A model generated the notes under the pieces. It made no database searches. It worked only from the letters and a program-made list of their open reading frames with translations, and was not told where the DNA came from. The translations under genes were made by a program, and so were the position numbers. A stretch of 40,645 nucleotides of DNA from Nitrospirales bacterium (GTDB taxonomy: Bacteria; Nitrospirota; Nitrospiria; Nitrospirales; UBA8639): NCBI GenBank assembly GCA_021604105.1, contig BQIW01000038.1, forward strand, positions 1 to 40,645, given 5' to 3'. Positions 15,746-33,074 of this stretch are shown piece by piece (positions within the stretch are counted from its first letter, which is position 1; each line of letters starts with the position of its first letter).

Positions 15746-18286
15746 TTATCCGACAGACTTGGGTTCAGAGGGCACTCCAATCGCCACTAGCCCTGTGCTG
15801 CCCTGAGCCCCATGAGCTATTCGTGTCGCCAGAAGGTGAATTCGGTGAAGGTGCTGCTCGATGATTGCCAGATCGGCAGCCTTGGCCGCGGCTTCCATTT
15901 CAGCTGCCGGCTTATTCAACACATCGAATCCCACAGTGCCACCCGCACCCTTCAGCCAATGAGCCAGCTTGGCAAGGGTTTCCATATCCCGATTCGAATA
16001 GGCGACATCCATCGCCTGCAGTTGTTCACCCAGGCGACCCACAAAACGGGCAATCACATTGGCGAGTTTCGGGTTGGTTGCCCCTAATTTGGAAACAATG
16101 GGTGAGGAATCCTCAATCTGTGAGGCTTGATGGTCCAGGGACTCCTGGAGGACGGATTGCCTGAACGATTCACCGGCTGGTTGACCATGAAGGAACTGAG
16201 CCAATTTTGCGAGGAACCGGTCGAGGTCGATGGGTTTGGTGAGATAGTCGGAAAATCCGGCATCAAATAACTCCTGCTCGAAGCCTTTCATGGCGTTGGC
16301 GGTGAGCGCAATGATGGGGATCTGCAGGCCTTTGTCCCGTAACGAGCGAGTGGCAGTGAGCCCGTCCATCTCGGGCATCTGCATGTCCATGAGAATGATA
16401 TCATATTCCCTGGCCGTAGCCATTTCCACGCCGATCAGACCATTTCCCGCTTCGTCGATGCTCAGACCATAACCCTCCAGGATCACCTTCACGAATTCGC
16501 GGTTTTCCTGGCCATCATCTACGACCAGGATCCTAGCCGATGGAAAGACCCAGTTGGTGTGTTCCTGCGTCATGACCGATTCGTCGATCATTAAGGCCTG
16601 CTCGGGTGTGACCCAGGTCACCTCCCTCGCACTGCCGGCATCCAGTGTGATCTTGAATACGCTTCCAGCTCCAGACTGACTTTCCACCGTAATATCCCCA
16701 CCCAGGGCACGTGCGAACTTGCGGCTGATAGCTAAACCAAGGCCGGTTCCACCGAATTTCCGGGTCACCGACGCATCGGCCTGGACAAAATCTTCAAAAA
16801 TTCGCTGAGTGGCTTCCTCATTCATTCCAATACCGGTGTCGGCGACATCAATATGAAATTGGATCAGGTCTCCGGCCACCTGCTTGGCGTGTGCGGTCAC
16901 CGTGACCGCGCCGCGCTCAGTGAATTTCACCGCGTTCCCCACGAGGTTGGTGATAATCTGGCGGATTCGGCCTGGATCTCCGATAATGGTCTCCGGGACG
17001 TCTTCCGGTACTTTGAGTTCGAGTGCGATGCCTTTTTCGTGAGCCCTCACACCAAGGACTCTGACGACATCCATAATCACGACATAGGGATTGAATCGTA
17101 CCCGTTCGATCTCCAGGCGCCCCGACTCGACCTTCGAGAGATCCAGAATATCGTTAATAAGGTCAAGCAAATGTTTCCCACTGGAATTGATGATCTCGAG
17201 GTGTTTCCGGGTTTCAACCGAGTCACGTCCGTAACCACGTTTAATCAATTCAGTGAAACCCAGGATAGCATTCATCGGCGTGCGGATCTCATGACTCATA
17301 TTGGCCAGGAAGGCGCTCTTGGCCTGATTGGCCGCAACGGCCTCCTCTTTGGACTTCAGTAACTCGATTTCGGCTTCTTCCAATTGCGTGACGTCATCAA
17401 AGCTGACCAGGACACCGACATTTTTGGCTCCACTGCCAAGGATAGGGGAGCAGTTTATCATAAACGTCAGCCGTGTGCCGTCGGGCAGAGTCAATCGGAC
17501 GCGTTCATTCTTTTGAGCCTCTCCCGAATTCAAGGCGATATGCCAGGGGTGTGCCCCCGGTGCCAACGGATGGCCTTCGATGTCCGACCACGGAAACGCT
17601 CCGACCGCCTGGCCCAAGAGCGCCTCAGGTGTCTTGGTTAACAACATGGCGAAGGCTCGATTGGCCAGCATGATCTGCCCTTTGTTGTCGAGCACCAGGA
17701 GCCCTTCTGCCATCGTATCGAGAGCGGATCGCACACGCTCAGGAACAGCCTGGGAGGGATCGAGTTGTTTCAACATTTTTCCTAAATATAGATAAAATCC
17801 GATGAAACACATCAGACCCACAAACAACAGGAATTGTGGTTGAGGGCCGGTGAGAAACCCAAACCAGCTATCGTCACTCAATGGACTGAATCGCAATTCG
17901 ACTTGTCCCCATTTGTCTTCTCCTTCCCAAATTGCGACCGTCACCTGGGTATTGGAAGAATAATCCGAATTGTTGTCCAGCCAATGGTTCTCATGGTCAC
18001 GTATTGTAATAAGCCAATCACCCGCTTCAGTTCGCAATCCGGCTGATAACAGGTCTGGGTTGCGGTCCACGACCAATTGCAAAATCCCCTCCAGGCGGTC
18101 AACGTCGTTCTGGGTTATCAGGATTGTGCCATTGGCGGCAATGGATTCGGCCAAAGCCGCACGTCCCTGGCGAACCGCTCCGTTTCGGTCGGGCATGAAG
18201 CCAAACAAACCTGCCGTCAGTAACACACTGATAAGGAGACTGACTTGGCCGAAGGCCAGACGAGATTTTGTTGAAAGAATGTTCAT
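15746..18286 (-). CDS. Hybrid sensor histidine kinase (PAS-HisKA-HATPase-REC-Hpt)
   Basis: The 846-residue membrane kinase has a first TM segment (about 15-32), a periplasmic domain of roughly 115 residues and a second TM segment (about 152-170). A PAS domain (about 185-300) follows, then HisKA with His332 in SHEIRTPMN, a HATPase domain (NAVKF, DTGIGM, GTGLGLAI), a receiver domain with Asp634 in LMDMQMPEMDG, and a C-terminal Hpt domain with AHWLKGAGG. It is thus a full phosphorelay in one chain. ATG at 18286 overlaps the TGA of the giant surface protein gene (TGATG), so the two are translationally coupled; a GTG one codon earlier is possible. The kinase may sense envelope state linked to the giant protein. 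The Hpt could feed the REC-GGDEF-EAL protein. Both are inference. Confidence 0.93.
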   Translation of the reverse strand: MNILSTKSRLAFGQVSLLISVLLTAGLFGFMPDRNGAVRQGRAALAESIAANGTILITQNDVDRLEGILQLVVDRNPDLLSAGLRTEAGDWLITIRDHENHWLDNNSDYSSNTQVTVAIWEGEDKWGQVELRFSPLSDDSWFGFLTGPQPQFLLFVGLMCFIGFYLYLGKMLKQLDPSQAVPERVRSALDTMAEGLLVLDNKGQIMLANRAFAMLLTKTPEALLGQAVGAFPWSDIEGHPLAPGAHPWHIALNSGEAQKNERVRLTLPDGTRLTFMINCSPILGSGAKNVGVLVSFDDVTQLEEAEIELLKSKEEAVAANQAKSAFLANMSHEIRTPMNAILGFTELIKRGYGRDSVETRKHLEIINSSGKHLLDLINDILDLSKVESGRLEIERVRFNPYVVIMDVVRVLGVRAHEKGIALELKVPEDVPETIIGDPGRIRQIITNLVGNAVKFTERGAVTVTAHAKQVAGDLIQFHIDVADTGIGMNEEATQRIFEDFVQADASVTRKFGGTGLGLAISRKFARALGGDITVESQSGAGSVFKITLDAGSAREVTWVTPEQALMIDESVMTQEHTNWVFPSARILVVDDGQENREFVKVILEGYGLSIDEAGNGLIGVEMATAREYDIILMDMQMPEMDGLTATRSLRDKGLQIPIIALTANAMKGFEQELFDAGFSDYLTKPIDLDRFLAKLAQFLHGQPAGESFRQSVLQESLDHQASQIEDSSPIVSKLGATNPKLANVIARFVGRLGEQLQAMDVAYSNRDMETLAKLAHWLKGAGGTVGFDVLNKPAAEMEAAAKAADLAIIEQHLHRIHLLATRIAHGAQGSTGLVAIGVPSEPKSVG

Positions 18287-21200
18287 CACTTATGCCAATG
18301 AAACCACCTGGCTCGAGCAGTCTTAGCGGGATTCCCGGTCTTTCCCTCAGCTATCTCGGATGCAGTGGATTTCTCAAATAATAATTCAACCGAATCGCCT
18401 TCCACACTGTTCTGCCCCTTTTGTCCTTTCTTTTTCGTTGCCGAATCGAGCACTAATAGCGGATTCACAAACTGCCAGGCCGGTACCGATGAGAGCAATG
18501 CCGTCAATAGCACCCCACTGCGCAGGAGCCAGACGACATAGCCGATCGACAGCCCGGAGGATACGGCAATGCTGGATGCCAAAAAGGTGTGCTGGGTGGC
18601 AGCGACCTCCTGAACATCCTCGCGGAGGCGATCCAAGTCCTGAAGGAACCCCGATCGGTGCAGTAATGATCGGATTTCATCTTTGAACGTCGTGAGTTCA
18701 ATAGGCTTCCTGAGCAAACTCCATATGTCACTCACCATCTCCACGAGGCCCGTGCGTTCTTCATCCTCCTGCTTAGCCGGCAATTCATGTCGTCCCAGCG
18801 TATTATCCGTCTCCGAATTTTTGGCGCCAGTGATTGTGGAGTCCTGGCCGCCGTCAGGGATATTCCATGGCAAGCCGGGATCAAGACTGCCCCCATTGCC
18901 CGGCGCCTGGTCCTCTGAAGTCTCTTCGCCGGTATCTCTCGGGGGGGGATCGGTTGAAGGCGCAGAGTCCGGTGGCGGGGGAATAAAAATTTGGGGCGGA
19001 ACATTGGCTTGGGTCACCGTGACGGCGATTGCCTGCGTATCGACGGATGTGCCATCGGAGGCCTGGACGATCACGTCATAGATATTATCGGCCCCGACAT
19101 CGCCCGGTGTCTGATATTCCGGAGCGGTGATGAATGTAAGAGCCCCGGTCGCGGGATCGATAGTAAATAACGCCGCATCGACACCGCCTACAATGCTGTA
19201 GGTCAGGGAATTGCCCTCCGCATCCGTGGCATTCACATCAGTCACGGCCGTGGTGCCGGTGGTAACAGAAATATTGGCGGTGGCACTGCCTCCATCTGAG
19301 GTGATGACGGGGGCATCGTTGACCGGGGTCACGGTCAAGTCCACCCTGATGGTATTCGATGTGGCACCGGAGAGATCCCGGATCGTATAGGTGAAACTTT
19401 CGGAGAGAGTTTCCGAACCACTATGGGTATAATCCACCGTCCCATCGGGATTAATGCTTGTAATGGTGCCATTGGTGGGGCCGGAGACAATGGTGATGCC
19501 GGTCAGATCCAATCCGTCATCGGGATCGCTGTCATTGTTGGATAGATTCAGCCGGGTGGTCGCCCCTTCATTGACGGTAAAGTTGTCGGCCACCGCTATG
19601 GGCGAATCGTTGACCGGGGTCACGGTCAAGTCCACTCTGATGATATTCGATGTGGCACCGGAGAGATCCCGGATCGTATAGGTGAAACTATCGGAGAGGG
19701 TTTCGGAGCCATTATGAGTATAGTCCACCGTCCCATCGGGATTAATGCTCGCAATGGTGCCATTGATGGGGCCGGAGACAATCGTGAGGCTGGTCAGATC
19801 CAATCCGTCATCGGGATCGCTATCATTGTTGGAAAGGTTCAGCTGGGTGGTCGACCCTTCATTGACAATAAATCCGTCCCCCACGGTTATCGGAGGATCA
19901 TTGACGGGATTGACGTTAATGGTCGTGCGGGCGGCCGAACTGTCTGCCGTGCCGTCGTTGACATACACGTCGATTAATCGGTCGCCATCGCTGGGAGCGT
20001 TCGTATCCGTGTGTTGGTACTGAAACGCCTTGATCAACGTTTTCGTCTCGACCTCTGTAAACGTCCCGCCGCCTTGTTTGGTAATCGTGACCGTGGCTGT
20101 TCCTGCCCCGGTGGCGAGCATCACATGATAGTTTCCGCCGGTGGTGTCCTGTCCGGCCACGGCGGTTCCTAGGGTAAAGGTATTGCCGTCGAGCACGAGT
20201 GTCTCAGCATTGCCGTCCAGCAGACCGCTCACGCCCAGTTTCACATAGGCGAAGGTGGTGCTATCCGGATCCAACAGATCCGTGTCACTATCGGCGATGC
20301 CCATCGGCCCGGCACCTTCAGTGAATGTGGCGTCATAGTCGTTGCCTGTGGCGCCGGAACTGTCGTTGGCATCGAGGTCCACGGTCGGCGGGTCATTGAC
20401 GGGAGTAACGATGATAGTAGCCGTATCCATGTGGGTAAGGGATCCACCACCTGTGTTGCCCAAATCATCGACACTCAGGGTCAGCAGATCCGACGCGTCA
20501 AAGTCTGTGTTTGTTTGGTACATGAGGGTGGCCAACGCATTATTGAGATTTGTCGTAGTGCCGGTAACAGTCATTGTTGCACTGTCGTTTGCTCCGCCGG
20601 CGAAGGTCAGGCCGGTTGTGGTCACCAATCGCAAAATACCGTCATTCACCGACAGGCTGACCGAAATGATATTCACTCCGGCATCACTGTCCGAAACGCT
20701 GACTCCGCCTAAGGGTCTGAACCCATCATCTTCATTCACCCCGTAGGAAACCGGACTAATTGTGGCAGTCGGCTGGTCATTGACAGGATCCACGTTGATC
20801 GTCGTGCGGGCTGCCGCACTGTCCGTGGTGCCGTCATTGACTCGTACCTCGATCAGCCGGTCACCATCAGAAGGAGCGCCCGTATCCGTGTGCTGGTATT
20901 GAATGGCCTTGATCAGCGTTTCCGCCTCGGCTTCGCTAAAGGTGGCCCCGCTCTGTTTGACGATCGTCATGATGGCTGTGTCTGCGGCCGTAGACACTCG
21001 CACATGGTAGTTGCCGCCGCTGGTGTCCTGACCGGGCGCATCGGTGGCCAGCGCAAAGGTATCCCCGTCGAGGATCAAGACTTCCGCATCGCCATCCAGG
21101 AGGCCACTGACTGACAAGGTCACATACGCAAACGTGGTGCTGTCCACATCCGCCAGATCTGTATCGGCGTCCGCAATTGCGGTGGGTCCGTCACCTTCGG

Positions 21201-24048
21201 TAAAGGTGAAAGCATAATCATTGTCCGAAGCTCCACTGCTGTTATTCACATCAAGGTCCAACGTTGGGGCGGCCGTACTCCCGTATTGGCGGGCAAAGAT
21301 ATCAGTTTGTGCGCCGTCGCTGCCGGTCCATACGGCCACGAAGTTATCCCGGTCCAGCATGGCCACCGAGGCACGGTCCTGAGTGTTGGCGGTGGTTTGA
21401 TTAATCAAAAACTCGAGACCGATTTTTTGACCACTGGAGTTGAATTTCTGGCCAAAGACCCCGGCGGTGTCATTCTGCCCAGGCCGATTTCCCGCCCCCT
21501 CCCATACAACGATGAACTCACCGATATCATCCATGGTGATAGAGGGATTAGTCTGAGTGGTCAAGAGACCTGAGGTATTGGCAATTTTGGGGAGAAAGAG
21601 CGCATTTCCTGCTGCGTCGAATTGCCTGACATAGACTTCCACATCAAGGACTGTAGCGCGATAGGCCACGGTAAACCGCCCATCGCTGCTCATATCCACT
21701 GCAGCGGCACCGGCACTGAGCTGTAGGAGCACGTCAACCTGACCGCTATTCTGTGAAACCCCTCCGCTATTGTAGAGCTGAAAGAAGACGTCCGAACCGT
21801 TATCCCAGACGACCACAAATCCGCCAGAATCCGCAATCCCTACCGATGGATCCTTCGCAGCCGCTGCGGTGTTGACGGTGATGTCACTGCCGGTCAACCC
21901 TCCGCCCATGCTGCCGCGTCGTACAAAAATTCCTTCGTTGCCCCCGCCGTCGCCTTCCCATGCGATCACGAAATCACCGGCGCCATTCATGTTCACGGAT
22001 GGATTGTGCTGAGTGTTAGACGTGCCGGTGTTGACGATCAGGTCTCCAGCATCGACGGCTGTGCCGTTGGCGAGAAATCTTCGCATGAAAATATCCCCGC
22101 CTTGGGTCCAGGTGACGAGAAAATTTCCGCTGTCGTCGACGGCGACATCGGTCCACGCGTTTGTTCCGCCGCCGATGTTGACTTGAAATTGAGCGACCTT
22201 CTGATTGCCACTGGCGTCCAACACTTTGGCGAACACTTTGTCGTTGGACGTGCCGTTCGTCCATACCACCACGTAGTCTCCGTTCGGCCCGATATCGACT
22301 GCCCGTTCGGCTCCTCGCAACGGGCCGCTGGTCTGCTCATTATTTCCTGAGGGATCATTGACCGTGAATTCATTTTTCGAGACAAAGGCGGAAGACTTAT
22401 ATTCGTAGGCGCCGATGTCCGGCGCCGCATCACGCGTGATGCCGCGCTGATCAACTGCAGGCGCACCGCTTGTTGTCCCTGCGTTGAGGGCGGGGCTGGC
22501 CGCCAGCAGCGCATGTGTGTTCGTGGGGCCGCCGTTGTTGGCGAGGACATCAAGATTGGCGCTCATGCCGGTAATGTCGCTGCCAACAAAACCGGTCGCT
22601 CCGCCTACCACTTCGAGCAGGTTGTACCCACTGCTGCTGAAACTGCCCAGGACATCATCATTGGCGGTAGCCGCCGTATTACCGCTCACAATCGTGTTGG
22701 AAATTTGAACGAGGGTGCCGTTGGAATAAATGCCACCGGCGTCATTGGCATTGTTGAGCGTGAAGGTGGAATTGATCACGGTGATCGGTGTATCCGTCCA
22801 GATCCCGCCCCCTTTATTGACGGCGGTGTTGCCGCTGAACGTCACATTGGTCAGGGTGCCCCCGTTAGCAGCGTGAAAATGAATCCCGGCGCCCTCATCC
22901 GCCAGATTATTGGCAATGAGGACCCGGTTGAGATTCAGCGTTCCGTGTACGTGAAAGGCGCCGCCGTCGCCGCCAGTGCTGTTGTTATTGGACACTGTGG
23001 CATCGCTGAGATTGAGGATGCTGTTACCGTTGACATATACCCCGGCCCCATTACTGATTTCACGTCCGTTTTGAATGGTCAGCCCGCTCATCGTGACCGT
23101 AATGCTGCCTTGGGTTTCAAAAATCCGTTCATTCGCGTTGCCATCGATGATGGTGGTGTCGGCACCGTCACCGGTGACGATCACATTGTCAGTAATATCC
23201 AGTTTTCCTGTGGTCAAGACATACGTGCCGGTTGGAATGATGATCGTGTCGGTTCCGGGTGCGGCATTGGCGTCGATAATAGCCTGACGAAGTGACCCTG
23301 CTCCGGCGTCATTCGTATTGGTGACGGTAAAGGTCGCGAGGACACCCTCCCAGGCTTCTTGGGTGGCTTCGCCGATGACGATTGACGTTTCAATGAACCC
23401 GGTTGCCACTTCCAATTCCCAGTTGGCATATTCGCTAACGTGCCCGGTCCGGTCCGTGCTCGCGGCAATATCAGCCCCTGTCAGTTCGGCTAGGGTTTGG
23501 ATTGCAGAGAAGCCGGGCTGACCGTGTCCAAAGGTACAGCCATAGATCAACAGATCGGCATCGGCAGACAAGCTCTGCCCGATCTGAGTCAACAGCGCCG
23601 CATAGTGATTGCTCATCGAATTATTGTTGAGAAAGGCCGTGCCTAAATGCAGTTCCGCTTCGGTGCCTTCTCCAATTAGATGAATGGCATCGATATTACT
23701 TCGGCCCTTGAGCGCTTCAGCAATTTCTTCGATCCCGTCTCTCCCTGCATCAAGAAGAATGACTTCGGCGGCAGGATGAATTCCTTCCATAAGGGTTTGG
23801 TAATCCTCAACCCGGGTATCGATAAAGACTATTTCCCGACGATCAGTTGGAGTAGCCGGGGAGAAAGCGAAGGGACGGGAGTTGACACCGTCAATGCCCA
23901 TTGTTTCACCGGAGTTCGTGTCTGCCTCAACATCGGTTTCCGAGACAGTTTGAACTTGGGCAATCTGGTCCTGCACCACTTCTGCCCCGGTGGCGAGGGC
24001 TGCCCCATCAAATAAGATCCTTGGTTCAAGAGCCAATAGTGTTTTCAT
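18286..24048 (-). CDS. Giant LEPR/DUF4347 surface-type repeat protein, 1920 aa
   Basis: The N-terminus carries the LEPRILFDGAA signature (residues 7-17) found on very large repeat proteins. A DUF4347 domain follows (about 71-230; IHLIGEG and IYGCTFG). Then come a right-handed beta-helix region (about 240-555, beginning TVTNTNDAGAGSLRQAI) and a propeller-like repeat region (about 555-930, VVW and SVAMLDRDNFVAVW repeats). A tandem array of Cadherin/Big-type domains ending PVNDxP (about 930-1690) is last among the extracellular parts. A Pro- and Asp-rich spacer and a charged coiled segment lead to two closely spaced hydrophobic segments (about 1823-1866) and a basic tail ending WFHWHK. There is no classical Sec signal peptide. 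The start ATG overlaps the stop of a 58-codon ORF, and the stop overlaps the kinase start. It is likely exported and anchored by the facing TolC-HlyD-M50 operon, acting in adhesion or biofilm (inference). Confidence 0.88.
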   Translation of the reverse strand: MKTLLALEPRILFDGAALATGAEVVQDQIAQVQTVSETDVEADTNSGETMGIDGVNSRPFAFSPATPTDRREIVFIDTRVEDYQTLMEGIHPAAEVILLDAGRDGIEEIAEALKGRSNIDAIHLIGEGTEAELHLGTAFLNNNSMSNHYAALLTQIGQSLSADADLLIYGCTFGHGQPGFSAIQTLAELTGADIAASTDRTGHVSEYANWELEVATGFIETSIVIGEATQEAWEGVLATFTVTNTNDAGAGSLRQAIIDANAAPGTDTIIIPTGTYVLTTGKLDITDNVIVTGDGADTTIIDGNANERIFETQGSITVTMSGLTIQNGREISNGAGVYVNGNSILNLSDATVSNNNSTGGDGGAFHVHGTLNLNRVLIANNLADEGAGIHFHAANGGTLTNVTFSGNTAVNKGGGIWTDTPITVINSTFTLNNANDAGGIYSNGTLVQISNTIVSGNTAATANDDVLGSFSSSGYNLLEVVGGATGFVGSDITGMSANLDVLANNGGPTNTHALLAASPALNAGTTSGAPAVDQRGITRDAAPDIGAYEYKSSAFVSKNEFTVNDPSGNNEQTSGPLRGAERAVDIGPNGDYVVVWTNGTSNDKVFAKVLDASGNQKVAQFQVNIGGGTNAWTDVAVDDSGNFLVTWTQGGDIFMRRFLANGTAVDAGDLIVNTGTSNTQHNPSVNMNGAGDFVIAWEGDGGGNEGIFVRRGSMGGGLTGSDITVNTAAAAKDPSVGIADSGGFVVVWDNGSDVFFQLYNSGGVSQNSGQVDVLLQLSAGAAAVDMSSDGRFTVAYRATVLDVEVYVRQFDAAGNALFLPKIANTSGLLTTQTNPSITMDDIGEFIVVWEGAGNRPGQNDTAGVFGQKFNSSGQKIGLEFLINQTTANTQDRASVAMLDRDNFVAVWTGSDGAQTDIFARQYGSTAAPTLDLDVNNSSGASDNDYAFTFTEGDGPTAIADADTDLADVDSTTFAYVTLSVSGLLDGDAEVLILDGDTFALATDAPGQDTSGGNYHVRVSTAADTAIMTIVKQSGATFSEAEAETLIKAIQYQHTDTGAPSDGDRLIEVRVNDGTTDSAAARTTINVDPVNDQPTATISPVSYGVNEDDGFRPLGGVSVSDSDAGVNIISVSLSVNDGILRLVTTTGLTFAGGANDSATMTVTGTTTNLNNALATLMYQTNTDFDASDLLTLSVDDLGNTGGGSLTHMDTATIIVTPVNDPPTVDLDANDSSGATGNDYDATFTEGAGPMGIADSDTDLLDPDSTTFAYVKLGVSGLLDGNAETLVLDGNTFTLGTAVAGQDTTGGNYHVMLATGAGTATVTITKQGGGTFTEVETKTLIKAFQYQHTDTNAPSDGDRLIDVYVNDGTADSSAARTTINVNPVNDPPITVGDGFIVNEGSTTQLNLSNNDSDPDDGLDLTSLTIVSGPINGTIASINPDGTVDYTHNGSETLSDSFTYTIRDLSGATSNIIRVDLTVTPVNDSPIAVADNFTVNEGATTRLNLSNNDSDPDDGLDLTGITIVSGPTNGTITSINPDGTVDYTHSGSETLSESFTYTIRDLSGATSNTIRVDLTVTPVNDAPVITSDGGSATANISVTTGTTAVTDVNATDAEGNSLTYSIVGGVDAALFTIDPATGALTFITAPEYQTPGDVGADNIYDVIVQASDGTSVDTQAIAVTVTQANVPPQIFIPPPPDSAPSTDPPPRDTGEETSEDQAPGNGGSLDPGLPWNIPDGGQDSTITGAKNSETDNTLGRHELPAKQEDEERTGLVEMVSDIWSLLRKPIELTTFKDEIRSLLHRSGFLQDLDRLREDVQEVAATQHTFLASSIAVSSGLSIGYVVWLLRSGVLLTALLSSVPAWQFVNPLLVLDSATKKKGQKGQNSVEGDSVELLFEKSTASEIAEGKTGNPAKTARARWFHWHK
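19321..19902 (-). repeat. Two near-identical tandem 291-bp repeats inside the giant gene
   Basis: Two units of exactly 291 bp (97 codons; 19321-19611 and 19612-19902) encode Big/cadherin-like domains that share long identical stretches (NNDSDPDDGLDLT, SINPDGTVDYTH, TYTIRDLSGATSN). Near-identity at DNA level points to recent duplication or ongoing gene conversion and makes copy-number change by recombination likely. Confidence 0.9.
19890..20387 (-). repeat. Long repeat copy B in the giant gene (about 165 codons)
   Basis: This unit begins VDLDANDSSGATGNDYDATF and ends at a PVNDPP boundary. It is related to copy A at 20772-21264, with shared blocks such as DSTTFAYV, VSGLLDGNAE, GQDTTGGNYHV, FQYQHTDT and APSDGDRLI. 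A different domain of about 125 codons separates the copies. Limits are approximate. Confidence 0.8.
20772..21264 (-). repeat. Long repeat copy A in the giant gene (about 164 codons)
   Basis: This is the N-terminal copy of the same domain, beginning LDLDVNNSSGASDNDYAF and ending PVNDQP. It is more diverged from copy B than the 97-codon units are from each other, so this duplication is older. Limits are approximate. Confidence 0.8.
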
Positions 24049-24221
24049 TTCATAGCGATCCCTGGTGCCGGTGAATGTTTGCCCGGACCTTTCTTCGTGC
24101 TGGTATTCCCTGATTGAGCTGATTCATCTGATATCACGCACCTATCCTTATGACGTGATTCTTCGTGTTGAGTTTCTCCTGTGGCCATAAATTCAACGGA
24201 AATTTCATGGTATTTTTGCAT
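24045..24221 (-). CDS. Small ORF (58 aa) translationally coupled to the giant protein gene
   Basis: ATG at 24221 is preceded by AAAGGG at 8-base spacing. The frame runs 58 codons to a TGA at 24045-24047 that overlaps the ATG of the giant gene in the classical ATGA arrangement. The product begins MQKYHEISVEFMATGE and is hydrophilic, rich in Ser, His, Lys and Glu, with one Cys and a Gly/Pro-rich end; no membrane segment or family is recognised. It could be a genuine small protein acting with the giant protein, or a leader peptide whose translation opens the giant gene's start site. The start overlap and ribosome binding site are direct evidence; the role is not known. Confidence 0.55.
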   Translation of the reverse strand: MQKYHEISVEFMATGETQHEESRHKDRCVISDESAQSGNTSTKKGPGKHSPAPGIAMK

Positions 24222-24836
24222 CGTGTTTTCCCTTTAGGCACATGCTTACGGCATGAGAAACCTCCATCTCCTTATTCGGCTATTGGCTTCATTTACTGGA
24301 AGCAATAAGGAAAATTTTCCCATCAAGTAATATTGTTGTTGGGGTTGAGATTGAATTAGGGAACCTGGGTGTGCAATTGAGAGAACCGATTCGGGGCATT
24401 GATTCCGAAAAATCAGACGGATTCTGGTTCATGAGGAAAGTGGACCCAAGATTTGATGGAAAAAAGAGGTGAAATTGAAAACTAAATTGGGGGGTATTCT
24501 GATTCAACCGACGAGGTCACATGCAGTTGTGAGGAATTGATGAAGATTGTTTCATGACTGGACAGAAATCACATTATTGAGAACGGTTTACTATATTAAT
24601 CTTGCCAGGGGAAAGTCCGAGAAACAGAATTGGAAAGCTGCAAAGACGTCGTTCTGGTTTCTATTGTGAACCAACATGGTCTTAGGGCTCGGGAGAATTG
24701 CCAGACCAGATTTGCGGAGGATTTGAGGTGCCGACCAGTGCCGTCTTTTGGTTGGTGACTATCCGCAGGCATGTTCGGGTGGGCATGAGACCGGTGTACA
24801 CGTACATTGACCGACTGGATGGTTAATTCTGTTTCG
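24222..24836. promoter_or_regulatory. Divergent control region between the giant-protein and exporter operons
   Basis: No protein gene is supported here. Three structures are visible: a hairpin CATGC-TTACG-GCATG (24241-24255) just upstream of the small ORF's ribosome binding site; a perfect 12-bp palindrome GGAAAATTTTCC (24309-24320), a possible operator; and a stem formed by GAAACAGAA (24621-24629) with TTCTGGTTTC (24652-24661) in the leader of the TolC-like gene. Both operons must be transcribed from within this stretch, but no strong -35/-10 pair stands out. Confidence 0.45.
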
Positions 24837-26513
24837 ATGCCATTACCTATTAAAAAATTACTGGTTGGGTTGGTGGTGATGGGATTGGTCCTGATTGACT
24901 CCGGCTGTGCCGTCATGCCCACTCCACTCAGTCAGGACGAAATTCAACAACGGGTCCAAGAAGATTTGGCTCAACTCACGCAATATCAGGAACCGGTGGC
25001 TCGTCCCATTACGCTCTTTGAGGCGATGGCGCGGGCGTTGAAATATAATTTGGAAACGCGGGTGCAGGGATTAAAGGAAATGGTCACGCATCGCCAATTG
25101 GATCTGGCGCATTACGATATGCTGCCGAAAGTGGTGGCTGATGCGGCCTATAATGGGCGCAGCAACTTTGCGGGAGCGAGCAGCCGGTCGTTAGAAACAG
25201 GCCAACAATCCCTCGTGTCCTCCACGTCTTCTGAGAAGAATATTTACACGGCCAATTTAGCCCTAAGCTGGGATGTGCTGGATTTCGGGCTGTCCTATGT
25301 CCGCGCGGAGCAAGCGGCTAACGACGTGCTCATTGCCGAAGAAGATAAACGTCGCATTGCCAATCGCGTTATTCAGGATGTCCGTTCAGCCTTTTGGAAG
25401 GCCGTGGGAGCGGAACGGGCGTTGGGACGTCTGGCGTTTCTTCAGGATTGGGTGACGCAAGCGCTGGGTGAGGTCCATCTGATTCGGGAGCGGGGATTGG
25501 CGGATCCACTCACTTCACTACAATATGAACGGGAACTCCTGAGCGCGCAACGGGAAATTCAACAACTGTATCAGGAATTATCCCTATCCAGAATTCACCT
25601 CGCCGAGCTTATGAACCTGGATCCCGGTGAACCCTATGAATTGGCGGTGCCGGAACATCCGCCCCTCGTGTCGAAGGTCTCTGAGAAGCTGGAAGATTTG
25701 GAATTCCGGGCACTCATGAATCGTCCGGAACTGCGAAAGGTCGACTACCAAAAACGCATTAACGCCAAAGAAACCAAAGCCGCCATCCTGGAATTGCTTC
25801 CCAATCTTAATGTGTATATGGGGGGCAATTACGATAGCAACAATTTTCTGTTTCATAATAATTGGCTGAATTACGGAGCCAAAGTTAGTTGGAATCTATT
25901 GAATGTGTTCCGGCATCCCGTCCGCTTGCAGGTCATTGACGCCCAGGAAAAGGTGTTAGACATGCAAAGCCTGGCGTTGACGATGGCACTGATGAGTCAG
26001 GTCCATGTGTCGGTGGCGCAATATCATGCGGCCATGAAGGATGTGGCCACGGGGAAGCGCTATCTCGAGACTCAAATGGCCATTGCCGATCAGGTTCAAC
26101 GTGCCTGGTCCCTGAACCGGCTCAGTGAGCATCTGGTCATCCGGGAAAAAATGCAAGGGCTTGTAGCCGAATTACGGTATGAATCCTCACTAGCCAAATT
26201 GGAAATGGCCTATGCCAATGTGTTAGCCGCGATTGGAGAAGACCCCTTCCCCACGGACATCACTGGAGACGGTGTCGAAGAATTGGCCGTAGCCTTGCAA
26301 GAGCGTTGGGAATGGCTTGAACGCCCCGAGGTCTTCGCGCAGGTTCATCCAACTGACGCTCAAACTCAATCGCCAACAACTCAATCCCAAGGGGCCGAGT
26401 CTCAACCCCAGGATACTGTCCGGGAATCCCAAGAGGCTGTCGGGCAATTCGAAGAAGCTGGCGCACAACCCCAAGAGACAACTACTCAAACCCAAGAGAG
26501 AGCTAATCCATGA
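24837..26513 (+). CDS. TolC-like outer-membrane efflux/secretion lipoprotein
   Basis: ATG at 24837 gives a compact lipoprotein signal peptide (MPLPIKKLLVGLVVMGLVL, then IDSGC with the acylated Cys at residue 24); in-frame starts at 24807 (TTG) and 24819 are possible. The 558-residue protein has the duplicated outer-membrane efflux (OEP) pattern. The first repeat starts TLFEAMARALKYNLE and includes the long helical segments around ALSWDVLDFGLSYVRA; the second includes ELLPNLNVYMGGNYDSN and VSWNLLNVF. It should form the trimeric beta-barrel and periplasmic tunnel of a tripartite exporter. The C-terminal 60 residues are an unusual Gln/Thr/Glu-rich tail with repeated SQ, TQ and PQ pairs. The stop overlaps the HlyD gene start (ATGA). 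Confidence 0.9.
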   Translation: MPLPIKKLLVGLVVMGLVLIDSGCAVMPTPLSQDEIQQRVQEDLAQLTQYQEPVARPITLFEAMARALKYNLETRVQGLKEMVTHRQLDLAHYDMLPKVVADAAYNGRSNFAGASSRSLETGQQSLVSSTSSEKNIYTANLALSWDVLDFGLSYVRAEQAANDVLIAEEDKRRIANRVIQDVRSAFWKAVGAERALGRLAFLQDWVTQALGEVHLIRERGLADPLTSLQYERELLSAQREIQQLYQELSLSRIHLAELMNLDPGEPYELAVPEHPPLVSKVSEKLEDLEFRALMNRPELRKVDYQKRINAKETKAAILELLPNLNVYMGGNYDSNNFLFHNNWLNYGAKVSWNLLNVFRHPVRLQVIDAQEKVLDMQSLALTMALMSQVHVSVAQYHAAMKDVATGKRYLETQMAIADQVQRAWSLNRLSEHLVIREKMQGLVAELRYESSLAKLEMAYANVLAAIGEDPFPTDITGDGVEELAVALQERWEWLERPEVFAQVHPTDAQTQSPTTQSQGAESQPQDTVRESQEAVGQFEEAGAQPQETTTQTQERANP

Positions 26514-27367
26514 TACATCGACACTCTAGCACTATTCTGTGTTTCGTTCTGAGTTTGATCCTGCTGCCTTCAGGCCTCAGTCTGGCAAAAGGCGTGGGAC
26601 GCAGCAGTGTGCCCTCATCGGATCTTCAAACAATTCGGGGCATTGTGAAGCCGGTCGTTGAAGCAGTGCTGGCCAGTGAAATCCAGGCGTTAGTGAAGCG
26701 GATGCCGTTTCGAGACGGGGATGCATTTAAAAAGGGAGACCTCCTGGTTGAATTTGAATGTGCCAAATACCGCGCGGAATTGTCAGCTGCTCAAGCTGAT
26801 TTGGAAGCGCGGCAAAAAACCGTCATCAATAACGAAGAGCTTGCCGCGCTCCACGGGATTGGCCGTTTGGAGGTGGACATTTCTCAGGCCGAATTAAAAA
26901 AGGCTCAGGCGGTTCTCAAGCGAGCACAAGTGATGGTCCAAGGCTGCCGGATTGCTGCCCCTTTTGCCGGACAGGTTGTGAAGACCTTGGTGCATCCCTA
27001 TGAAAGCGTGAATCCGTATGATGATCTGGTGAGTATTGTCAGTAACCAGGATCTGGATATCGAATTGATTCTCCCGTCCACCTCCCTACGGTGGATCACC
27101 AAGAACCAGGCATTTGTATTTAGCCTCGATGAGACTCAAGAGGCCTATCCGGCGGAAGTGGTGGAAATTGGGGCTCGTGTGGATCCCGTGAGTCAAACCA
27201 TTCGGGTCTTCGGCCGGTTCCACAAACATCCCGCGGGTGTCCTCGCCGGCATGAGTGGAAGTGCCAAATTTCCGGAAGGCACATTTCCCACCCAATCAAC
27301 CGTCAAGCAAAAGACGAAACCTTCAGCCTCACCGGCCTCCTCGATAAATCAGACGGTCAAACACTAA
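26510..27367 (+). CDS. HlyD-like periplasmic adaptor protein
   Basis: The 285-residue protein starts within the end of the TolC-like gene (4-base overlap). It has an N-terminal signal sequence (about 8-27), the first half of a biotinyl-lipoyl domain (ALVKRMPFRDGDAFKKGDLL) and a short helical hairpin (about 85-145, AELKKAQAVLKRAQVM). The second lipoyl half (CRIAAPFAGQVVKTLVHPYESV) and a beta-barrel domain ending near GMSGSAKF follow. The C-terminal tail is Ser/Thr/Pro/Lys-rich. Adaptors of this type bridge the inner-membrane part and the TolC tunnel. It seems to lack a TM anchor beyond the signal peptide, so it is probably a soluble or signal-anchored periplasmic subunit. Confidence 0.88.
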   Translation: MIHRHSSTILCFVLSLILLPSGLSLAKGVGRSSVPSSDLQTIRGIVKPVVEAVLASEIQALVKRMPFRDGDAFKKGDLLVEFECAKYRAELSAAQADLEARQKTVINNEELAALHGIGRLEVDISQAELKKAQAVLKRAQVMVQGCRIAAPFAGQVVKTLVHPYESVNPYDDLVSIVSNQDLDIELILPSTSLRWITKNQAFVFSLDETQEAYPAEVVEIGARVDPVSQTIRVFGRFHKHPAGVLAGMSGSAKFPEGTFPTQSTVKQKTKPSASPASSINQTVKH

Positions 27368-27417
27368 CGCCTTCCGGACAAAGTTTTCGGTTAATTCAAA
27401 GGAGGAAAACGAGAGAG

Positions 27418-28860
27418 GTGCAGACAGAAATCCCGACCGAATCCTCTTCGCAAGTGCGGGGGAATGAATTCAGGTCCTTCTCCGGTCAGCCCGGCGGACC
27501 TTCCATCGTTCTCAAGGGCAAATCCGAACATGATTCAAGTATTTTCCTTGCTCTCCTCCAGATGGAAAGTCAGGTTCGTAAGGCGCAAACGGTCAAAGAA
27601 CTTTGTTTTCTTCTAGTCAATGAGGCTCGTCGTCTCGTTGACTTTCGACAGGGGTGTATTCTTTCCATCACGCCGAAAAGACGAGTGCGGGGCAGAGTGG
27701 AAGCGGTGTCCAGCGTGGCCGTGGTTAACCGCAATGCACCGATGATCAACTGGGTTGAACATGTCATTTCGGAATTATGGGATCACGGCAGCCTCCGGAC
27801 TGCCGGTACTCTGTCGGCAACAAATTGTTCCACAGATCTTCAGCGTGATTGGAAGTCTTTCGCGTTTCCTCATGTCTTGTGGTGTCCATTGATTACTACG
27901 GATCAGCAGGTGATTGGCGGCCTATGGTTGACCAGGGAGATACCCTGGCAAGATGGGGAAATGGAATTGATGCGGCGGTTTGCCGAAACGGTGGCTCATG
28001 CCTGGCAGGCGCTCGAAGGCACAAAACGGAAAGTGAAAAACTGGAAGGTTCTCCAGCACTGGATATGGGGAGTTCTTGTCGTGATGATGGCTGCCATGTG
28101 GCTGCCCGTACGGTTGTCTACGCTGGCTCCGGTTGAAGTGATCCCGCGGGATCCATCGGTGGTAACGGCACCACTGGATGGGGTGCTTGGAGAAATCCTT
28201 GTCAACCCGAATACTCTTGTTCGAAAAGGGCAAACGCTCTTTCGCTATGAGGACACCACGTTCCGGAATCAATTTGAAGTGGCGGAAAAGAATCTGTCTG
28301 TGACCTGGATGGAGTATCGCAAAGTGTCGCAGGGGGCATTTGTCGACCATGAGACCGGTGCGGGTATGCCTGTGCAGGCCTCAGAAGTCCGGCTCAAAGA
28401 AGCTGAACGGGATTACGCCTGGGACATGTTACAGCAAGTAGAGGTAAACGCTTCCCGAGGGGGCATTGTGATTTTTACGGATAAATCCGAATGGATCGGC
28501 AAGCCGGTGCTGGTGGGCGAACGTATTATGGAAGTGGCCGATCCTCGGGAATTTGAATTGAAAATCGATCTACCGGTGGAAGACGCTATCGTGTTACGGG
28601 AAGGCGCTGAGATTGAGGTGTTTTTGAATGCCAATCCTTTACGAGCCATTCCTGCTCAATTAACACATGCCAGTTATCATGCGAGTATTCTCCCGACCAA
28701 TGTCCTGGCCTATCGGGTGGAAGCCGAGTTCACGGATCCCCCTGAGGATATTCGAATCGGTTGGCAAGGCACCGCCAAAATCTATGGAGAACCGGTCACC
28801 CTCTTTTTCTATCTCTTTCGGCGACCACTCGGAGTCCTTCGACAAACGGTCGGTTTCTAA
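27418..28860 (+). CDS. GAF-TM-HlyD fusion protein (membrane adaptor)
   Basis: A GTG start at 27418 follows AAAGGAGG at a rather long 12-base spacing. The 480-residue product has a cytoplasmic GAF-like domain (about 45-200; it includes LLVNEARRLVDFRQGCIL, WCPLITTDQQVIGGLWL and FAETVAHAWQAL). One TM helix (about 214-232) follows, then a periplasmic HlyD region with lipoyl halves around APLDGVLGEILVNPNTLVRKG and GGIVIFTDKSEWIGKPV, and a barrel domain. This couples a small-molecule or regulatory GAF domain inside the cell to the exporter outside. The stop overlaps the next start (TAATG). Similar GAF-HlyD proteins usually sit beside M50-HlyD genes; the mechanism is unknown to me. Confidence 0.85.
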   Translation: MQTEIPTESSSQVRGNEFRSFSGQPGGPSIVLKGKSEHDSSIFLALLQMESQVRKAQTVKELCFLLVNEARRLVDFRQGCILSITPKRRVRGRVEAVSSVAVVNRNAPMINWVEHVISELWDHGSLRTAGTLSATNCSTDLQRDWKSFAFPHVLWCPLITTDQQVIGGLWLTREIPWQDGEMELMRRFAETVAHAWQALEGTKRKVKNWKVLQHWIWGVLVVMMAAMWLPVRLSTLAPVEVIPRDPSVVTAPLDGVLGEILVNPNTLVRKGQTLFRYEDTTFRNQFEVAEKNLSVTWMEYRKVSQGAFVDHETGAGMPVQASEVRLKEAERDYAWDMLQQVEVNASRGGIVIFTDKSEWIGKPVLVGERIMEVADPREFELKIDLPVEDAIVLREGAEIEVFLNANPLRAIPAQLTHASYHASILPTNVLAYRVEAEFTDPPEDIRIGWQGTAKIYGEPVTLFFYLFRRPLGVLRQTVGF

Positions 28861-30989
28861 TGGGTCAGCCAAAGCCTCAAGAAAACTTTCCCCTTCCACC
28901 GTTGCGGGATGATCTTCAGATCCTGTCCGGTACTCCGACGCCTGATGGCGTCCCCACGTGGACGATCGTGGACATGGTTCGAAATCAATTTTTCCAAATT
29001 GAATGGTCCGCGTTCCAACTGCTTTCACATTGGGAAGCGGGAACTGTCGGGGGCTTGGTGGATCTGGTTACCCGAACCACCACGGCCACGGTCTCAACCG
29101 GTGAAGTGATGGAGTTGGTCCAGTTTCTCTATCGGAATAATTTAACACGGGATTCGTTAGTCGGTGGAAGTCAGGGGTTCTTAGGGCAGGCCGAAGAGGC
29201 GAAACAACATTTTCTGCTGAGAGTGCTCCACAACTATTTATTTTTCAGAATTCCCTTATGCAATCCGGACCGGTTCTTACGAACAACGCTTCCATTCGTC
29301 ACTCCGCTGTTTAGTGGATGGGCCTTATGTTGTGTGGTCATCCTGGGAGTGATCGGGTGTATGGGAGTCGTTCGGCAGTGGGAATCGTTTGCCAATGTCT
29401 TTTTGTATTTTTTTACGTTTCAAGGGATGACCGGTTATATCATCGGGTTGGTGGCCATTAAGATATTGCATGAACTTGGGCATGCCTATACCGCCGTTCG
29501 ATACGGGTGCCGGGTACCCACGATGGGCCTCGGGTTCCTCATTATGGTGCCTGTCCTCTATACCGACACGACCGATTCCTGGCGGCTCACCGTCCGGAAG
29601 CAACGTGCGGCCATTGCTGCTGCGGGAATGGTAGTTGAGCTCAGTGTGGCGATGCTCGCGACCTTTTTTTGGAACTTCTGGCCTGATGGTATTGTTAAAA
29701 GCATGCTTTTTGTGTTGGCGACCACCAGTTGGGTGACCGGGCTGCTGATCAATTTGAATCCGCTGCTCCGGTTTGACGGGTACTACGTCTTGTCCGATTG
29801 GCTGGGTGTCCCGAACTTACAATCACGGGCCTTCGGGTTTGGCCGGTGGAAATTACGGGAATGGTTATTTGCCTGGGGAGATGCTCCTCCGGAACACATG
29901 CCTCCGCACCGGCAAACTGTGTTGATCCTCTATGCGTGGGCGGTGTGGGTTTACCGGGCCGTCGTGTTTTTAGGAATTGCTGTCCTGGTATATTACTTTT
30001 TTTTTAAGGTTCTGGGCGTCATCCTCTTTTTCGTGGAAGTAGGCTGGTTTCTGGCATGGCCGGTCTATGAGGAACTGCAGGTCTGGTGGATCCGTCGGGC
30101 GGCTGTGACCAAATCCTGGCGAGGGCGGGGCGTCGGCGTCTTGCTGATGGGGTGTCTGCTGATGAGTATGATGCCCTTGGATACGACGGTAGAGGTTCCG
30201 GCGATAATTGAGGCTCCGGAACGCACGACATTGTACCCTTCGGTTTCAGCAATGGTGGTGGAGGTGTTGGTTGATGAGGGTGACCGGGTTGAACAAGGCC
30301 AGACGCTTTTGATTTTACAGTCGCCACAGGTCAATCATCAGATTGACATGGTCGGGCATCGCATTGCGGCGCTAGAGTTTCGCATGGGACGAGAAATCGC
30401 TTTTCAGGATGATCGGGATGATCATCTGGTGATTCGAGAGACGCTGGAGAGGGAACAAAAGGCACTGTCGGGCCTGCTTACACTCCGAGATCAATTGACC
30501 CTGCATGCTCCGTTCTCCGGAGTGGTCACTGATCTGGCGTCTTCACTTCATCCAGGGCTGTGGGTCAATAGCGATATGGCGATGGGCCAGGTGATTGGTG
30601 AACATCCATCCGTAATGCTGGCCCTGGCCACGGAAAAAGAAAAGACCCGGCTCTCGGTGGGAAATGAAGGATGGTTTTATCCGGACGACCCCACCCGGCC
30701 TCCCAGACAGGGGCGGCTTAGGGACCTTCGTCATGTGGACGAATCGGAAATGGCATTACCGTACTTAGCCTCCACCTATTCCGGAGGCGTTCCCGTGCGC
30801 CAGGATGCGCAGGGCAGATTGATTCCCGAGCATTCCGTATACCGGGTGGAACTGGATGTGACGGACAAGGATCCATCCTGGAATCAGGTGGTGCGAGGGG
30901 TGGTCCATGTGAAGGGCAGTGGCCAAAGTGTGATGGGGCATCTTTGGGCACGTGTGGCTTCCATTCTCATTCGGGAAACCGGAGCCTAA
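28860..30989 (+). CDS. Polytopic M50 (site-2-protease-like) metallopeptidase fused to a HlyD-like domain
   Basis: The real start is the ATG at 28860, overlapping the upstream stop; a longer in-frame extension to 28761 overlaps the previous gene and is rejected. The 709-residue protein has a soluble N-terminal part (about 1-130) that resembles a PqqD-like winged-helix domain (QFFQIEWSAFQLLSHWE). A membrane M50 core follows, with the zinc motif HELGH (204-208) and the second motif NPLLRFDGYY (300-309) with the third metal ligand Asp. More TM helices reach about residue 440, and a C-terminal periplasmic HlyD/lipoyl domain (about 445-700) follows. All metal-binding residues are kept, so it could cleave substrates in the membrane. 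In this operon it stands where an ABC or RND transporter would be expected. Confidence 0.9.
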   Translation: MGQPKPQENFPLPPLRDDLQILSGTPTPDGVPTWTIVDMVRNQFFQIEWSAFQLLSHWEAGTVGGLVDLVTRTTTATVSTGEVMELVQFLYRNNLTRDSLVGGSQGFLGQAEEAKQHFLLRVLHNYLFFRIPLCNPDRFLRTTLPFVTPLFSGWALCCVVILGVIGCMGVVRQWESFANVFLYFFTFQGMTGYIIGLVAIKILHELGHAYTAVRYGCRVPTMGLGFLIMVPVLYTDTTDSWRLTVRKQRAAIAAAGMVVELSVAMLATFFWNFWPDGIVKSMLFVLATTSWVTGLLINLNPLLRFDGYYVLSDWLGVPNLQSRAFGFGRWKLREWLFAWGDAPPEHMPPHRQTVLILYAWAVWVYRAVVFLGIAVLVYYFFFKVLGVILFFVEVGWFLAWPVYEELQVWWIRRAAVTKSWRGRGVGVLLMGCLLMSMMPLDTTVEVPAIIEAPERTTLYPSVSAMVVEVLVDEGDRVEQGQTLLILQSPQVNHQIDMVGHRIAALEFRMGREIAFQDDRDDHLVIRETLEREQKALSGLLTLRDQLTLHAPFSGVVTDLASSLHPGLWVNSDMAMGQVIGEHPSVMLALATEKEKTRLSVGNEGWFYPDDPTRPPRQGRLRDLRHVDESEMALPYLASTYSGGVPVRQDAQGRLIPEHSVYRVELDVTDKDPSWNQVVRGVVHVKGSGQSVMGHLWARVASILIRETGA

Positions 30990-31911: not shown

Positions 31912-32778
31912 TTATCCTGTTGCTACGGGTTGGTGGGCTTCTTTCATGAGGTCTAACATGCCGGAGAGTTGCTTTTCCGCCTCTATCATACATTCTTTGA
32001 GCCCGTCCTCATCCAAGCCTGTTAATTTCCACGATTCAGGAGCTACCAGATGTTGCCACTGTGCATGCCCATTTGGTGTCTGGAATCCTTCGGTGAGTGC
32101 GCTGGCCATATTGAGGAGTGCCGCTTCAAATCCGTGATCGTTGGTACAGGACGGTTTGTTCTGATACCGAATGGCGATCCCGAAATTTTTGGGTAGCTGC
32201 CATTCTTCAATGAGTGTTTGCCCCACTTCGGTAAAATCGAACCCCAACATCCGTTGTTCTAAGATATGGATGGGAGTTCCAGTATTGGCGGATTCTCGTA
32301 ACACCTGTTCTGATGGTTCGGGTAGTTGCTCATAAAGGAGGAGGTGTCCGATATCTCTCAACAGGCCCTCCACAAACATCCGTTCACTGTCCACTAGAAA
32401 ACATTTTCTTGCTAATTCCCGTGCGACCAGTCCGCTAAAGAAACTGTTGGACCAATACACGCTCATACTCATCACGTGTTGGTTGAGGCCTGCGAAGGTT
32501 TTGGTAACCGAGATGGCGAGCGTCAAATCATGGAGGGGTTGCATGCCGAGGATTCCGACAGCTCGAGAAATGGTCTCGACCTTTCGGGGCATTGCGTAAA
32601 ATGCGCTATTCACTAATTTGAGGACGGCGATGGTCATGCCAGGATCAATGCTGATCGCTCTGGACAAATCCGCCATGGTGGACTCAGGATTATCGATAAC
32701 CTTTTTGACTTGCAGATAGACTTCGGGAAGCGTAAAGAGCTTGGTGCAATTTTTTACCAGTTCCTCTGCTGTTAGCAT
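31912..32778 (-). CDS. HDOD domain protein
   Basis: I chose ATG at 32778 because GAAGGG lies 6 bases upstream; in-frame starts at 32784 and 32811 are less well placed. The 288-residue product is essentially one HDOD domain (about 8-215). It includes LFTLPEVYLQVKKVIDNPES, the DPGMTIAVLKLVNSAFYAMP helix and the SVTKTFAG segment, but the HD metal-binding pairs are not complete: the GLLRDIGHLLLYEQ segment has RDIGH where active HD phosphohydrolases have HDIG. HDOD proteins are usually non-enzymatic signalling scaffolds. It is not next to a receiver or GGDEF gene. Confidence 0.85.
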   Translation of the reverse strand: MLTAEELVKNCTKLFTLPEVYLQVKKVIDNPESTMADLSRAISIDPGMTIAVLKLVNSAFYAMPRKVETISRAVGILGMQPLHDLTLAISVTKTFAGLNQHVMSMSVYWSNSFFSGLVARELARKCFLVDSERMFVEGLLRDIGHLLLYEQLPEPSEQVLRESANTGTPIHILEQRMLGFDFTEVGQTLIEEWQLPKNFGIAIRYQNKPSCTNDHGFEAALLNMASALTEGFQTPNGHAQWQHLVAPESWKLTGLDEDGLKECMIEAEKQLSGMLDLMKEAHQPVATG

Positions 32779-33074
32779 GGTCATCCCTTCTGGTGCAGCT
32801 CTGGTGTGCAATGGCCTATACGTTGACCTTTTCTTATAGTTCTCGGATATTTCCTTGTGTTACTTAACGTGAAGCTCCTCCCAGCAAGCTGAGGGTATTC
32901 TGCGCTGTTTTTATGAATCTTTTTCCGTTTCAGGTTGGCTATTTGGCCACGTAACCGGGGTGGTTGGTTCCCAAACGGTTGGTTTGGGGAGCATGAAGGA
33001 GAGAGCATGGCCCTGTTCTGTCAGATCAGGTTGCGGTCATGCAAGTGAAGGAACGAGGCAGGAAAGAGGAACGA

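Follow-up and report, generated by a model that had tools for sequence, protein, structure and literature searches.

Gene Organization of the Locus

The window analyzed here is the 40,645-nucleotide contig BQIW01000038.1 from the 4.9-Mb genome of a Nitrospirales bacterium (assembly GCA_021604105.1), and its central part holds a candidate export system for a giant repeat protein with an N-terminal LEPR motif. The giant protein and a hybrid histidine kinase are encoded on the minus strand, and a TolC-like, an HlyD-like, a GAF-HlyD and an M50-HlyD protein on the plus strand. An earlier note on this DNA had described two facing operons; the two groups are instead divergent, lying back to back. The putative substrate (18286-24048, minus strand) is 1920 residues long and combines the LEPR leader with a DUF4347 domain and tandem-95, cadherin and Big_9 repeats.

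The exporter cassette consists of a TolC-like outer-membrane factor of the OEP family (24807-26513), an HlyD-like periplasmic adaptor (26510-27367), the GAF-HlyD protein (27418-28860), predicted to place one membrane segment (residues 211-229) between its GAF and HlyD parts, and the M50-HlyD protein (28860-30989), the putative inner-membrane component. The families proposed earlier for these four proteins were all matched, and no ATPase family matched any of them in Pfam and NCBIfam scans, in agreement with the claim that the set has no ATPase. The tight packing of the cassette was also recovered as described: the TolC and HlyD frames overlap by 4 bases (ATGA) and the GAF-HlyD and M50-HlyD frames by 1 base (TAATG), the single exception being a gap of 50 bases between HlyD and GAF-HlyD.

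Genomic Linkage of Giant Proteins and Cassette

A genome collection was scanned with an alignment of the M50-HlyD protein, and the best 80 of 213 confirmed loci were taken as relatives. The scores split into a high class of at least 450 bits (class 1) and a low or sister class of about 210-340 bits; neighboring genes, ATP-binding cassette (ABC) proteins, resistance-nodulation-division (RND) pumps and SecA-like proteins were counted over 96 class-1 loci. The relatives come from Nitrospirota and from alpha-, beta- and gammaproteobacteria, among them Pelagibacteraceae single cells, Pectobacterium, Pseudomonas, Marinomonas, Azospirillum and one metagenome-assembled genome (MAG) labelled Pedobacter. 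Among named relatives, the closest M50 protein, encoded in a Nitrospirota MAG (L007), is 64% identical, and the divergent layout is the same there. GAF-HlyD is present in 78 of the 80 loci and is the same-strand neighbor of the M50 gene in 76, while all four cassette genes occur in 54, with the order TolC-HlyD-GAF-M50 in 51. One further locus, L125, has the giant placed between TolC and HlyD. The cassette TolC is presumably closer to OprM and CusC than to the TolC of type I secretion systems (T1SS); a lipobox-like motif is seen in 48 of 58 complete TolC N-termini (window, L002-L086), and not in the window by the pattern used.

The co-occurrence across genomes that had been suggested as a check is pronounced. 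In a sample of 249 Pseudomonadota genomes, centered on a known positive and with G235 dropped (DUF4347 below cut-off), class-1 M50 proteins occur in 57, and DUF4347 is found in 52 of these 57 versus 14 of the 192 genomes without (Fisher p 1e-34). Among 100 genomes of the window's phylum, 10 have a class-1 M50 protein and 11 have DUF4347, all 10 being shared, and DUF4347 lies no more than about 16 kb from every one of the 11 class-1 places. On probable long contigs, a proxy derived from contig number and position, DUF4347 lies within 30 kb of at least 16 of 24 class-1 loci, where about 0.55 would be expected; over all contigs, many of them short, the count is at least 43 of 103. Stretches read on both sides of the eight long-contig exceptions revealed a LEPR giant next to TolC in four and none on either side in the other four. 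The linkage exceeds chance, and the proximity of giant and cassette argues against co-occurrence as pure phylogeny.

Plasmids carry the same pairing. Five of 78 matching plasmid records were examined (Azospirillum, Escherichia coli, Kosakonia, Cupriavidus and Burkholderia), and all five have a LEPR-type giant upstream, the one of Azospirillum being annotated as two genes with a broken frame. Of 5426 complete E. coli genomes, 24 contain the HlyD, GAF-HlyD and M50-HlyD genes of one E. coli plasmid with an identity of at least 99%, and 21 of the 25 places are on plasmids. One E. coli plasmid (L003:340-20091) encodes a 4459-residue giant with a LESR-type leader together with a full class-1 cassette. 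The cassette is also present in uncultured Pelagibacteraceae (L033, L037, L038, L042, L051, L057, L073 and L075), whose complete giants span 2362-3261 residues and whose genomes, where sized, amount to 0.9-1.3 Mb.

Leader, DUF4347 Domain and C-Terminus of the Giant Proteins

The window giant begins with MKTLLALEPRILFDGAAL. As stated in the earlier note, it is a LEPR/DUF4347 protein: the motif of LEPR-XLL leader proteins is present at its N-terminus as LEPRILFD at residues 7-14 (24007-24030), and DUF4347 is matched with an E value of 1.1e-50, along with tandem-95, Big_9 and cadherin-like repeats, in the Pfam and NCBIfam scans. Its NCBIfam matches include no curated LEPR-XLL model, which we presume to exist. 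The protein showed no hydrophobic segment at its N-terminus and no RTX family matched it in either scan, consistent with the claim that it has neither a Sec signal nor an RTX C-terminus.

Truncated loci were extended before the giants of the 80 relatives were sorted, and an antisense-like open reading frame (ORF; L020:11813-14965) and ORFs far from the cassette were not counted. By script, 33 loci have a LEPR giant recognized by pattern, 7 have DUF4347 with no pattern match, 22 have a large repeat ORF with no visible leader, 1 has a fragment and 17 have none. Five of the seven DUF4347 loci carry a leader with Ala (LExRIAFD) and two are cut at the N-terminus; one locus sorted as none, L061, carries LEPRILLD, as seen by eye. 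A giant with leader or DUF4347 is hence found in 40 loci by script plus L061, and 20 further loci have a large repeat ORF with no visible leader beside the cassette, in addition to the fragment in L083; in L063 and L071, the large repeat ORF is not beside the cassette.

The LExRxxxD leader is present in 39 of the 41 cassette-adjacent giants with a readable N-terminus. Of these 39, 27 lie within the loci, separated from a cassette gene by 4-439 bases, and the remaining 12 were seen in the extended stretches. The two exceptions (L030, L080) are complete large ORFs beside the cassette whose called starts look spurious. By chance, the pattern arises in 4 of 7800 shuffles, and it is absent from 128,879 residues beyond position 160.

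The DUF4347 domain of the window giant (23338-23832) belongs, according to its structural model, to the clan-CD fold of caspase/CHAT-like proteins, with VIA Z scores of 12.9 for 9qpe, 8.7 for SAVED-CHAT and about 6-7 for caspases and legumain. The best match, 9qpe, is Tce1, a DUF4347 type VI protein of Pseudomonas aeruginosa, which resembles the domain in fold and, with an E value of 3e-4, in sequence. Tce1, however, is a separate effector, whereas DUF4347 here forms part of a giant, close to its N-terminus. In an alignment that 22 of 44 listed DUF4347 stretches entered, all 22 domains retain the Cys of the catalytic-type His/Cys pair and 20 also retain the His; the window and L007:755-1336 are the two with Glu in place of His and the Cys kept. 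In most relatives, the domain may be an active cysteine peptidase, perhaps serving self-processing. In the window, it is probably not an active peptidase.

Close to its C-terminus, the window giant has a hydrophobic segment (residues 1833-1851, 18496-18552). Similar segments are seen in L100, L104 and L128, weak ones in three more loci, and no match was found in plasmids. Only 6 of 59 ORFs have a hydrophobic segment within the last 250 residues, and L041:16922 among these 6 is no cassette giant; a universal C-terminal anchor was therefore rejected. A different C-terminal pattern, [FL][ST]xQ[LIV]...LLxxL, recurs within the last ~50 residues of proteobacterial giants. It was matched by 31 of 60 giants tested, compared with 7.6% of shuffles and with 22 internal windows out of 1355; ORFs that are not giants, and the first of the two pieces of the split giant L002, had been dropped before the test. 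It is absent from the window giant and 7 other tested giants of its phylum, and from 21 of the 52 others. As the pattern was drawn from the same sequences that were scored, a common C-terminal signal is a lead only.

Domain Architecture of the M50-HlyD Protein

The M50-HlyD protein comprises an N-terminal domain resembling PqqD and other recognition elements (RRE) of ribosomally synthesized and post-translationally modified peptides (RiPP) at 28887-29156, the zinc motif HELGH (29469-29483), the second M50 motif NxxPxxRFDGY (29751-29783) and an HlyD/barrel-sandwich part (30177-30776). The protein thereby carries the motif pair HExxH and NxxPxxxxDG of M50 (site-2) peptidases with its zinc site intact. 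HExxH is retained in 80 of 80 relatives (76 by pattern, 4 read by eye) and the second motif in 78. The best NCBIfam match of the M50 part is a daptide metalloprotease (E 3e-41), with 141.8 bits below the cut-off of 300. The M50 core aligns with daptide/YydH-type enzymes, but the window protein has extra RRE and HlyD parts.

For the N-terminal domain, residues 11-135 were modeled from an alignment of 45 sequences, made after 10 near-duplicates had been removed from the 54 loci listed for the M50 domain. The model shows three strands and three helices, with a pLDDT (predicted local distance difference test) of 84-93 by blocks across model residues 1-90. When compared by VIA with the 1000 chains ranked highest by Foldseek, it matches best the lasso B1 protein with leader (Z 10.3, root mean square deviation 2.9, 82 aligned), followed by TbiB1 with leader (10.0 and 9.7) and PqqD (8.4). 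RiPP heterocyclases, a sactipeptide synthase, MccB and TruD follow at about 6.5-7.2, mixed with other proteins such as GdmN (7.6). The top seven Foldseek rows are all RRE chains. A profile of the class-1 domain matches that of the sister-class domain with an E value of 7.6e-15; in the sister class, 12 of 17 members match Pfam PqqD with E values no higher than 0.1, the lowest being 1.3e-9 and L105 exceeding the cut-off, and the sister-class profile matches PqqD in the PDB (E 0.0075). By this model, the N-terminal domain is a winged-helix RRE fold with three strands. It shares this fold with the recognition elements lasso B1, TbiB1 and PqqD, but forms one protein with a membrane protease and an adaptor here, and stands beside a protein of thousands of residues rather than a small precursor peptide.

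Search for a Motor and the SecA-Bearing Sister Class

LapA and SiiE systems are type I systems for giant adhesins. With type I secretion (HlyB/HlyD/TolC), the window system has in common an HlyD-type adaptor, a TolC-like channel and a giant repeat substrate; in contrast, its set holds no ABC exporter, M50-HlyD and GAF-HlyD taking that place, and its giant has no RTX family. ORFs of at least 90 codons within 6 kb, large repeat-like ORFs left out, were screened as neighbors of the class-1 cassettes, and all ORFs of the loci were checked for RND pumps with one query. Strict ABC motifs were seen in ORFs around 4 of the 96 loci, and members of a looser P-loop/ABC cluster around 9; all of these lie outside the cassette. 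A single locus (L043) has an RND-like pump, which belongs to another operon that has an HlyD of its own, and a SecA-like profile (E 1e-5) found nothing in the 96. A conserved motor near class 1 was rejected on these counts, which did not extend to pumps of the major facilitator superfamily (MFS). In the window genome, no HlyB-type transporter exceeds the NCBIfam cut-off, ABC exporters below it are present, and a single SecA is encoded in a frame of 916 residues.

The sister class displays a different arrangement. We examined 18 of its loci (L105, L106, L107 and L128-L142); 3 belong to the window's phylum, and the other 15 were taken from the 34 in Pseudomonadota. A SecA-like ATPase, mostly of 640-730 residues, is encoded at the M50 gene in 17 of the 18; the one in L131 is weak (45 bits), those in L137 and L138 are cut or broken; no such gene was found in L128. 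The proteins of L105 and L107 have the SecA DEAD, preprotein-binding and P-loop domains. LEPR-type leaders such as LEPRLLLA and LEERILLS are visible in 6 of the 18 loci, and most other large ORFs run off the stretch. L128 is intermediate, with a LEPR giant containing DUF4347 and no SecA.

A secondary SecA_DEAD/T1SS-like locus with GAF-HlyD, M50-HlyD, HlyD and sometimes OEP proteins was described computationally by Kamneva, Poudel and Ward in 2015; in the main text, where the words LEPR, DUF4347, PqqD and giant are absent, SecA is suggested as the ATPase and the M50 protein as a possible membrane pore, neither substrate nor leader is given, and the broader role is left unknown (PMC4452313). Judged by gene content rather than by sequence comparison, the sister class corresponds to this locus type, for which that study was the only description among the papers searched. 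The window likewise joins GAF-HlyD, M50-HlyD and HlyD proteins but, unlike the 2015 module with its secondary SecA-like ATPase, its class has none nearby and its genome a single SecA. The statement of the earlier note that no characterized example is known must accordingly be qualified by this computational description of a related locus with a SecA. The SecA-free class, together with its giants, its RRE and the link to the leader, was not found in the literature searched (subscription papers and preprints being outside its scope).

Because the sister class carries its own SecA-like ATPase, and the window genome has a single SecA and no HlyB over the cut-off, the housekeeping SecA is the first candidate for the motor of the SecA-free class, a speculative assignment.

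Regulatory and Other Neighboring Genes

The hybrid histidine kinase (15746-18289, minus strand), whose start overlaps the stop of the giant, carries domains in the order PAS-HisKA-HATPase-REC-Hpt, and is possibly a lineage-specific regulator. Ahead of the giant lies an ORF of 58 codons (24045-24221, minus strand) that overlaps the giant start by 4 bases. The earlier note had counted it as part of the operon. The ORF exists, but tblastn of the loci found no homologue (best E 0.15), including in the nearest relative L007, so that it was rejected as a conserved partner and is, judged by sequence, probably not a gene.

The neighborhood is rich in signaling genes. A REC-GGDEF-EAL protein (13690-15522, minus strand) lies directly behind the kinase, and proteins of HDOD type, named from their sequence rather than scanned, flank both sides (11957-13189 and 31912-32811, both minus strand). 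GGDEF/EAL-like ORFs occur in 4 of 96 loci, and control by cyclic di-GMP was dismissed as a family feature. Genes annotated as tail fiber stand beside the cassette at L004:20128-22235, L006:3466-4080 and L002:3012-4871; a related family is present in 6 of 96 loci, so tail-collar-type proteins are not a general component.

Proposed Export Route and Alternative Explanations

We consider the locus to be a dedicated double-membrane exporter for giant LEPR proteins with a probability of roughly 0.6. The proposal of the earlier note, an ABC-free exporter with the M50-HlyD protein as inner-membrane part, is backed as far as genomic linkage reaches. The fold and the linkage suggest that the RRE-like domain would bind the LExRxxxD leader of the giant in the cytoplasm. 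The membrane-embedded M50 part, with its intact zinc site, could then act as inner-membrane gate, as remover of the leader, or as both. Judging from their families, HlyD, GAF-HlyD and M50-HlyD would form a mixed periplasmic adaptor docking on the TolC-like factor, and the GAF domain might, more speculatively, sense an opening signal for the system. In the M50-HlyD protein, the succession of RRE, membrane protease and adaptor can be read as a path along which the leader is caught in the cytoplasm, the protein passed or cut at the membrane and then delivered to TolC.

Several observations weigh against this interpretation. The four-gene set itself encodes no energy source. Five of the 57 class-1 Pseudomonadota genomes have no DUF4347, and DUF4347 proteins must have other routes, as they occur in 14 of 192 genomes with no class-1 M50 protein. 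The positives of the window's phylum come nearly all from one order, and the counts are uncorrected for phylogeny. Among the 24 long-contig loci, four cassettes are giant-less; the two of G157 and the one of G184 have DUF4347 elsewhere in the genome, and in G196 it was not found. Exporters with no adjacent giant, which the earlier note had named as a refuting observation if frequent, make up six of the 80 loci despite at least 5.8 kb of upstream sequence (L019, L021, L035, L056, L063 and L071). Of these, only L056, L063 and L071 also cover about 10 kb downstream, and the genomes of L056 and L063 carry DUF4347 elsewhere; most other giant-less loci have less than 1.3 kb upstream.

The leader and the recognition domain are affected as well. 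Three repeat-like ORFs of the sister class with a called start (the second ORF of L106, L134 and L135) have no leader, and a LEPR-type N-terminus has also been described on an RTX giant (PMC10868602). The best Foldseek E value of the modeled domain is only 2.7e-3, and a non-RRE chain, 7vx0, reaches a VIA Z of 7.6. The window domain matched no Pfam family; 2 of 45 class-1 members match Pfam PqqD, at best with E 0.014, while unrelated families reach 0.006, and the class-1 profile found no RRE chain among PDB sequences.

Among the alternatives, the one that survives best, though we regard it as unlikely, is that the giant crosses the inner membrane by Sec or an unlinked ABC exporter and that the role of the M50-HlyD/TolC set is limited to its processing, anchoring or release, by analogy with the control of LapA by LapG and LapD. 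M50 enzymes are proteases and HExxH is invariant among the relatives, the C-terminal hydrophobic segment of the window giant could be a membrane anchor with a cleavage site, and the genome does have a SecA and ABC exporters below the HlyB cut-off. Mere release, however, would need neither a TolC channel nor three adaptors; the window giant has no detected hydrophobic N-terminal segment, no HlyB-type transporter over the cut-off is encoded, and the C-terminal segment is restricted to the few ORFs given above.

Clearly less probable is a role of the set in exporting some small peptide or RiPP-like product, with the giant as functional partner rather than substrate. RRE domains and M50 peptidases are known in RiPP pathways, and the M50 part has its best NCBIfam match in the daptide enzyme. 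Yet no RiPP modification enzyme was seen by eye among the top 25 recurring neighbor clusters of at least 90 codons in the 96 loci (smaller ORFs not being screened except for the 58-codon ORF of the window, which is not conserved), and the conserved leader sits on the giant itself. Least probable of all is an ordinary efflux or type I system with its pump encoded elsewhere and the giant as passenger of shared mobile islands: copies on plasmids mean that joint transfer could hold the genes together, but pumps and ABC-like ATPases are as rare near the cassette as described, the co-occurrence is seen in both phyla sampled, and the sister class has LEPR-type giants too.

Implications

Returning to dedicated export of the giants, the window system is the SecA-free form of a locus type that has hardly been described, and it shows strong signs of a new export principle. 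Beyond the earlier note, the analysis adds the RRE-like domain, the SecA-bearing sister class, the protease-like fold of DUF4347 and the C-terminal hydrophobic segment of the giant. We give even odds to a broader hypothesis of a widespread secretion system in which an RRE-protease-adaptor captures the LEPR leader and HlyD and TolC proteins pass the giants on with no ABC, RND or MFS pump, occurring as a SecA-free and a SecA-motor class with the same type of leader as export signal in both.

The SecA-free class extends to E. coli plasmids, Pelagibacteraceae and Azospirillum, and the E. coli copies put testable systems at hand for the question that the locus poses, namely how a TolC/HlyD exporter is powered in the absence of a pump. 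If the interpretation is true, it would provide an export route for a large group of giant repeat proteins with neither Sec nor RTX signals, tell what the locus type reported in 2015 does and which substrate it serves, both left open there, and reveal that leader recognition of the RiPP type has been reused in protein export.

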